The position numbers and the translations under genes are program-made. The notes below the pieces were generated by a model. The model saw nothing but the letters and a program-made list of their open reading frames with translations. It was not told the origin of the DNA and did not search any database. 64,000 nucleotides of DNA from Atopobiaceae bacterium (GTDB lineage: Bacteria > Actinomycetota > Coriobacteriia > Coriobacteriales > Atopobiaceae), in the NCBI GenBank assembly GCA_017513965.1, contig JAFWMI010000179.1:1-64000 (forward strand). Direction: 5' to 3'. Shown here piece by piece: positions 53,200-54,672 of the stretch; the first letter of the stretch is position 1; each line of letters opens with the position of its first letter.

Positions 53200-54672
53200 A
53201 TGTCTCAACAGCTGCTGCCCATACGCCATCAGTTTCCCGAAGGCTTTCTTTGGGGAGGAGCCTTTGCCGCGCACCAAATGGAGGGTGCTTGGAACGAGGG
53301 TGGCAAAGGGCTCTCGGTAACCGACATCAGCGCGCTTCGCAAGGACGTGCCCATCGAGCTGCGCATGCAGGGGGACCTCAGCCGGGAACAGGTGCGCGAG
53401 ATGCTCTCCCACGAGGACGACTGGGTCTTCCCCAAACGTTGGGGCATCGACTTCTACCACACCTATCAGAATGATCTTGCGTTGCTTGGATGCGATGGCC
53501 TCGGGCTCAACGCCATTCGCACTTCCATCAATTGGAGCCGTATCTTCCCGCATGGTGACGAGGAGAAGCCCAATGATGAGGGTCTGGCCTTCTATGACCG
53601 GCTTATCAATGCGATGCTGGCGAACGGACTTACGCCTTTCCTCACCGTTTCGCACTATGAGATGCCGCTCGCCTTGGCCATGGAGCATGGCGGCTGGCAC
53701 GATCGAGCCACCATCGATCGGTTCGTTCGTTTGTGCAAGGTGCTTTTCGATCGCTTCCACGACCGCGTGACCCATTGGATTCTGGTGAACCAGATTAACA
53801 TGGTTGCGCATGAGGGCTTCAACCATCTTGGCGTTCCCACCGACGAAACGGACGATCCCATGAGCGCGCGTTATCAGGCGCTTCACAACGAGATGGTGGC
53901 CTGTGCGCTAGCCACTGCCTACGCGCACGACACCTATCCAGAATTGCAGCTCGGTGTGATGGAGTACGCCAACCTCGCTTATCCTGCCACCACCGCGCCC
54001 GAGGATGTGATGGCTACGTATCGTCGCAACCAGATGGAGCAGCTGCCGGCAGACGTGCTCGCGTTGGGTGCATACCCTGGCTACGCGCTCCGCTTCTTCG
54101 AGGAGCGAGGCATCGATGTGCAGGCCGAAGACGGCGACCTTGAGGCGCTTGCGGCTCATACGGCTGACTTCGTGTGCTTCTCGTACTACCTTACACAGGT
54201 ATGCTCTGCCCAGAGCGTGGCGGAACACGAGCAGGGAGGTGGTGACACCTTCCAAAACCCACTGCTCGAAGCCAACCCCTGGGGTTGGGCCATTGACCCA
54301 GTGGGTTTGCGCTGGACGCTCAACGTGTACCAAGATCGCTATCACAAGCCGCTCTACATAGTGGAGAATGGATGCGGCTACTTGGAGGAGCCGAGTGACG
54401 ACGGCGTGGTGCACGATTCGTATCGCGTGCGGTACTTCCGCGACCACATCGCACAAGTGCGCGAGGCCGTGGCAGACGGCGTTGACGTGCGTGGGTATTT
54501 TGCCTGGGGTGCGATGGACATCGTATCTGCGAGTTCGTGCGAGATGTCCAAGCGCTACGGTTTTGTGCACGTGGACCAGGACGACTATGGCAAGGGTTCG
54601 GGTAAGCGCACACCCAAAGAGAGCTTTGCTTGGATGCAGCGCGTGGTGCGAAGCAACGGGGCGGAGCTATAG
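53200..54672 (+). CDS. GH1 glycosidase homologue with Gln in place of the acid/base Glu
   Basis: A 490-residue GH1 protein; start 53200 after GAAAGGAATCCGC. The nucleophile Glu389 (VENG) and phosphate-binding-like motif [13 protein letters not shown] are present. But the acid/base motif, NEIN in the two other GH1 proteins here, reads LVNQIN with Gln198 (codon CAG at 53791-53793). Loss of this residue normally abolishes O-glycoside cleavage, except for good leaving groups; plant myrosinases carry the same Glu-to-Gln change and cleave S-glycosides. A 35-residue acidic insertion ([20 protein letters not shown]) follows the N-terminal loop. Likely controlled by the adjacent RpiR protein. Confidence 0.9.

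Follow-up and report, generated by a model that had tools for sequence, protein, structure and literature searches.

Bacterial GH1 6-phospho-β-glucosidases, including BglA/AscB, LpPbg1, SmBgl, S. pneumoniae BglA-2, and the B. licheniformis enzyme 6wgd, carry a glutamate at the acid/base position. In LpPbg1, the sugar is contacted by Gln22, His134, Asn179, Glu180, Glu375, Trp423, and Ala431, the phosphate is held by Ser432, Lys438, and Tyr440, and the aglycone lies on Trp349 (PMC3605045). PTS-linked degradation of sinigrin has been described for CfPbgS from Companilactobacillus farciminis and for BglA/AscB from E. coli O157:H7 (PMC8660893). Among plant enzymes, a glutamine occupies the acid/base position in the myrosinases (e.g., Sinapis alba 1myr), which act on non-phosphorylated glucosinolates, and, outside the myrosinases, in rice Os4bglu14 and Os9bglu33 (PMC1781453). 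None of these plant proteins is a 6-phospho enzyme; the myrosinases belong to a plant GH1 branch, and the rice proteins to a branch unrelated to the bacterial enzymes considered here. No description of a bacterial Gln-type GH1 clade was found in the open-access literature searched, subscription literature being outside its scope.

The window analyzed here, a 64,000-nucleotide stretch of an Atopobiaceae assembly, includes a 490-amino-acid GH1 gene (53200–54672, + strand) delineated from its open reading frame and an orthologue alignment spanning residues 1–490, with a ribosome-site-like AAAGGA at 53188–53193, six bases upstream of the ATG at 53200. At the acid/base position, this protein has Gln198 (CAG, 53791–53793) within the motif W-I-L-V-N-Q-I-N, while W-L-T-F-N-E-I-N is encoded by both remaining GH1 genes of the window (15985–17451, + strand; 26899–28365, − strand). 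The catalytic nucleophile Glu389 (GAG, 54364–54366, motif VENG) and the phosphate-binding loop S443-A-S445...K451-R-Y453 (54526–54558), equivalent to Ser432/Lys438/Tyr440 of LpPbg1 (PMC3605045), are both intact, so that this part of an earlier sequence-only reading was borne out. The protein matches Pfam PF00232 with 398 bits, and its best NCBIfam model is PRK09593 at 475.8 bits, under the curated cut-off of 639. Its AlphaFold model has a pLDDT of 95 and matches GH1 structures in the PDB with a TM score of about 0.9, the closest being solved 6-phospho-β-glucosidases; no Gln-clade enzyme with a solved structure was found among the best PDB matches. Judged from its sequence, the Gln enzyme is thus a GH1 protein that is functionally 6-phospho-β-glucosidase-like, but one that lacks the acid/base glutamate and scores below the curated cut-offs. 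Ordinary GH1 genes are abundant in the host genome (about 20 copies), and all copies readable at the acid/base site have Glu, except for a second, contig-truncated Gln copy. This second copy (G000:C18; L017/L040/L193) is 87% identical to the window gene and is cut by the contig end. It may be a paralogue or a contaminant and, since the window assembly is flagged as 7% contaminated, may derive from a neighbor species.

The sequence-only reading had named in advance two observations that would speak against a genuine substitution, namely a sequencing error and a Glu in close orthologues. Neither was found: CAG is present in nine copies of equal length, i.e., the window gene and eight orthologues at 86–89% identity from separately assembled genomes, and all orthologues with ≥72% identity, from rumen and gut Coriobacteriia assemblies, have Gln. 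With dN/dS values of about 0.07–0.11 against its orthologues, and a CAG shared by nine copies, the window gene encodes a protein under strong purifying selection and is not decaying. A sequencing error, or an ordinary Glu enzyme that decayed recently, would fit the remnants of the Gln GH1 gene detected in some relatives (L088 (G011), L082, and L076), which represent apparent losses; however, it is already refuted by the presence of CAG in the nine full-length copies compared, by the clade-wide Gln, and by the low dN/dS, and its probability is negligible.

Next, we asked whether Gln is fixed in a clade, as the same reading had proposed to check. This was the case for all 54 representatives, none of which reverts to Glu (47/47 E-type rows have Glu), and in a wider alignment the acid/base position was Gln in 112 rows, Glu in 69, and any other residue in none. 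In a tree of 54 Gln and 52 Glu representatives (<90% identity, six motif residues masked before tree building), a single change separated the two types with an SH-aLRT of 100. A more careful tree of 57 rows, also with the motif masked, recovered the Gln group with 100/100 support and a single change in 200/200 bootstrap trees. The Gln-type enzymes sampled therefore form a single group with one origin and no reversal, with the proviso that Gln rows beyond the close relatives were mostly found by motif and nested Glu members are possibly under-sampled; motif-independent whole-protein searches added Glu rows to the tree, none of which was placed inside the Gln clade. Fixation of Gln across the clade in both trees also rules out a chance single mutant. 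The bacterial 6-phospho-β-glucosidases listed above share the fold of this clade, at about 40–46% identity, together with its −1 subsite, phosphate site, nucleophile, and PTS operon context; they differ in their acid/base Glu, while the Gln enzymes form a separate, fully supported branch with a +1-loop signature of their own.

The sampled clade spans Coriobacteriia, Bacilli, Clostridia, Erysipelotrichia, and Enterobacterales, and its members are known from gut, rumen, bee-gut, and plant-associated bacteria. Gln enzymes at 39–56% identity were detected in Enterococcus, Lactobacillus, Companilactobacillus, Clostridioides difficile, Clostridium simiarum, Bacillus, Niallia, Lentibacillus, Erysipelotrichaceae (several in Breznakia), Coriobacteriaceae, Tatumella, and Enterobacter. 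Occurrence is patchy: the DNA pattern for W-I-x-[VI]-N-Q-I-N matched 14/298 genomes of Coriobacteriia, 19/78 of Enterococcaceae, 7/58 of the family of Breznakia, 6/121 of Lactobacillaceae, and 2/398 of Bacillota. Pattern counts that cover the two Enterobacterales matches L113 and L114 overstate prevalence, as these loci gave no GH1 match when searched and were rejected as clade members. Another pattern match, L260 (L270 with its flanks), was absent among the Gln operons and is probably not a GH1 gene. Conversely, Gln variants with W-I-V-C-N-Q-V-N (L207:9792–11240 and L245:5987–7432) escape the search pattern, and the clade is therefore larger than counted. The 4.3 Mb genome of Breznakia pachnodae (G314; L109–L111, L214, L215) holds about 60 GH1 candidates, among them several Gln genes, some arranged as tandem Gln–Gln pairs; such pairs were also seen at L183, L201, L212, and L217.

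Across the clade, Gln26 (where present), His152, Asn197, Glu389, Trp436, Lys451, Tyr453, and Trp363 vary little or not at all and, as aligned, correspond to the LpPbg1 residues that form the glycone and phosphate sites and the aglycone platform. Glu389 is retained in 54/54 Gln rows and Ser445 in 47/54, and the position of Ala444 is usually Cys in the clade; the window protein itself has the S445, K451, Y453, and A444 (Ala, not Trp, before the Ser) of a BglA-type phosphate site, according to the criteria of PMC3605045. The acid/base is the sole catalytic or −1 residue to be exchanged in every member of the clade. This exchange is coupled to Val/Ile replacing Phe196, two positions ahead of the Gln, and is embedded in the +1-loop signature W-I-x-[VI]-N-Q-I-N-[LM]-[IV]-x-x-E-[SP]-F-N. 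The Glu of this signature, seven residues after the Gln (Glu205; GAG, 53812–53814), is found in 47/54 Gln rows, while E-type rows mostly have Gly, His, or Ala there; it lies in the β4–α4 loop, which contributes to the +1 (aglycone) subsite (PMC3605045).

Such a distribution could point to a relocated acid/base, in which Glu205 would transfer the proton and the enzyme would cut ordinary or bulky O-linked 6-phospho-β-glucosides with an altered geometry, and the enrichment of a second acidic residue, Asp215, in 50/54 Gln enzymes would be in line with it. We nevertheless consider this unlikely. Two groups without Glu205 (the three rows L139, L140, and L176, and the group L135/L170/L173) keep Gln198, and so Gln198 is not conditional on Glu205; moreover, in plant GH1 structures the +7 residue touches the aglycone rather than the glycosidic oxygen.

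The resemblance to plant myrosinases put forward in the sequence-only reading holds at the residue level: like the clade, the Sinapis enzyme combines a Gln at the acid/base position (T-I-N-Q) and a Glu nucleophile with Ile/Val in place of the Phe. Because the same pair of Gln and Phe replacement occurs in both, two GH1 branches have reached a similar local solution. However, the residue at Gln+7 is an Arg in myrosinase 1myr, where it presumably contacts the sulfate of the glucosinolate, and a Glu in 47/54 Gln enzymes. Glucosinolates, which had been suggested as substrates, are therefore unsupported and unlikely as a general substrate, and the window enzyme, as far as its residues tell, is myrosinase-like at one position and not a myrosinase. 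The Arg/Glu contrast leaves two readings for Glu205, which may be either a binding residue or a substitute acid.

We then evaluated the genomic context of the Gln genes. Of 77 distinct Gln genes with enough flanking sequence, 62 share a predicted co-directional cluster with PTS genes of the lactose/cellobiose or β-glucoside family, and the Gln enzyme is the only GH1 in 45 of these 62 clusters. The usual layout is IIB-IIC-IIA-GH1 with a PRD/LicR-type regulator nearby, of which E. gilvus provides an annotated example, and fused IIBCA proteins are more common at Glu-type control loci from overlapping genomes. CfPbgS and BglA/AscB likewise pair PTS uptake with a GH1 6-phospho-β-glucosidase, in their case acting on a thioglucoside (PMC8660893); unlike the typical clade operon, the CfPbgS system has a fused IIBCA, and CfPbgS, 48–50% identical to BglA/AscB, is probably a Glu enzyme and unlikely to be an already described clade member. 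The PTS operons, together with the invariant Lys451 and Tyr453, lend good support to the earlier suggestion of a 6-phosphorylated substrate, and they make a purely regulatory role unlikely. A sugar-sensing pseudoenzyme, non-catalytic or nearly inactive, which would bind a 6-phospho-glucoside and regulate the operon, had also been raised; it would account for the loss of the acid/base, and laboratories use the identical change to obtain GH1 catalytic mutants. We regard it as improbable, however, as the nucleophile is kept in 54/54 Gln rows along with all −1 and phosphate residues, dN/dS is about 0.1, the Gln enzyme is the sole GH1 of 45 PTS operons, and separate regulators of the PRD, RpiR, or MocR type exist.

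The window locus has no PTS gene adjoining the Gln gene, and among near relatives a PTS was found in L063 only. Directly upstream of the GH1 gene lies an RpiR/SIS-family regulator (52139–53026, + strand) that matches MurR/RpiR family models below their cut-offs, the copies in relatives carrying Pfam HTH_6 and SIS domains. The RpiR neighbor reported by the sequence-only reading is thus real in the window but not a general feature, as it occurs in a minority of the sampled relatives from the same lineage, where it flanks the Gln gene on either side (L056, 83% identity; L057/L025/L189, 64%; L061, 64%). Upstream of the regulator is an EamA (DMT) transporter gene (51081–51962, + strand) with an uncertain link to the GH1 gene: no close EamA homologue was found beside close orthologues of the window gene, and another EamA gene is present in the Gln cluster of L179. 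Further upstream, two adjacent open reading frames (47714–49087 and 49109–50107) have, by eye, radical-SAM-like cysteine motifs and shared sequence; from about residue 265 onward, the second has an unrelated, glycosyltransferase-like sequence, and a further open reading frame follows at 50077–50583, which looks as if two genes had been joined by a deletion or frame change.

No recurring neighbor that identifies the aglycone was found in the Gln loci, and among HAD phosphatases, His-phosphatases, esterases, EamA transporters, and other operon partners, none except YczE was recurrent enough to name a substrate. A gene for a YczE-family membrane protein is found no more than 5 kb from 13/83 Gln genes, compared with 1/62 Glu genes (Fisher p 0.004), in counts where the loci are not phylogenetically independent and Clostridioides is counted three times; the sole Glu locus with YczE (L076) also holds a fragment of a Gln gene. 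YczE lies inside the Gln operon in Clostridioides, Lactobacillales including Enterococcus, Bacillus, and Erysipelotrichia including Breznakia (e.g., L207:8312–8938, L205:10142–10795, L073:7516–8145, and L245:7484–8056, from several families). A link between this family and PLP-binding MocR regulators has been described, and a role in metabolite transport has been proposed for it (PMC4944035). In L063, a PdxR-type MocR (NF052282, 400.8 bits, above cut-off) is encoded between the PTS IIBC gene and the Gln gene, and a divergent, shortened, PdxR-like MocR gene flanks the second Gln copy of the window’s genome. Taken together, these neighbors weakly suggest an aglycone related to vitamin B6, or a YczE that moves the released aglycone. 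A vitamin B6 glucoside (pyridoxine-β-glucoside-6-P) as the substrate has nonetheless only a very small chance of being correct, as MocR was seen in just one lineage, YczE is itself an uncharacterized family, the YczE loci lack phylogenetic independence, no other B6 genes were seen nearby, and the leaving group would be an alcohol, whose departure is normally acid-dependent.

The reading we prefer, with confidence slightly better than even, is that the window protein is an active, cytosolic, retaining GH1 6-phospho-β-glycosidase belonging to a distinct Gln clade. A PTS would import a β-glucoside and phosphorylate it at the 6 position; in the window lineage, uptake would be encoded elsewhere, since the PTS is usually not adjacent. 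Glu389 would then attack at the anomeric carbon and displace the aglycone, which would depart unprotonated because it is a good leaving group in its own right (candidates are a thiol or thiohydroximate, a carboxylate ester, an acidic phenol, or an N-linked heterocycle). The resulting glucosyl-6-P enzyme would be hydrolyzed without a protein general base by a water positioned by Gln198 and Asn197, yielding glucose-6-P, perhaps aided by an external base in the way that ascorbate assists myrosinase. Having lost the acid, the enzyme would be selective and leave ordinary O-glucosides such as cellobiose-6-P intact; these could be cleaved by the Glu-type GH1 enzymes of the same cells. The most likely substrates would be thio-, acyl-, aryl-, or N-glycosides, whose aglycone can leave without protonation. 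The PDB matches include Glu-to-Gln mutants at the acid/base position (Gan1D-E170Q, BglA E166Q, and CaBGL E163Q), and because this change is made in laboratories to obtain GH1 catalytic mutants, an unusual linkage would be the simplest reading. Gln at this position is also the change with which crystallographers inactivate GH1 enzymes, which speaks against an active enzyme. Alternatively, an acceptor that is anionic or nucleophilic (phosphate, carboxylate, or thiol) could take the glycosyl group from the enzyme in place of water, in a glycosyl transfer or phosphorolysis; acid/base mutants that lack the general base do favor anionic acceptors, but neither a conserved acceptor site nor a partner enzyme was detected, and we consider such a route decidedly improbable.

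Extending the acid-free reading to the whole group, we tentatively propose, as a possibility that falls somewhat short of probable, a widespread bacterial GH1 clade with acid-free catalysis that evolved independently of plant myrosinases, is coupled to the PTS and dedicated to 6-phosphorylated S-, acyl-, or N-glucosides (“phospho-myrosinase-like”), and in some members relies on YczE as the aglycone transporter. The clade as a whole, an old one whose catabolic enzymes are evidently maintained by the cells, lacks a residue thought essential in GH1, and available family models would label these proteins as ordinary 6-phospho-β-glucosidases, leading to assays with the wrong substrates. Since Clostridioides difficile, Lactobacillus apis, Enterococcus, and rumen Coriobacteriia have Gln enzymes, genetic tests in cultured strains are feasible, and the occurrence of YczE in Gln operons offers a lead to the function of this family. 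If thio-, acyl-, or N-glucosides are indeed cut, the solution seen in myrosinase would have arisen a second time, independently, in this clade, and the clade would show how gut, rumen, and plant-associated bacteria free bioactive plant aglycones.
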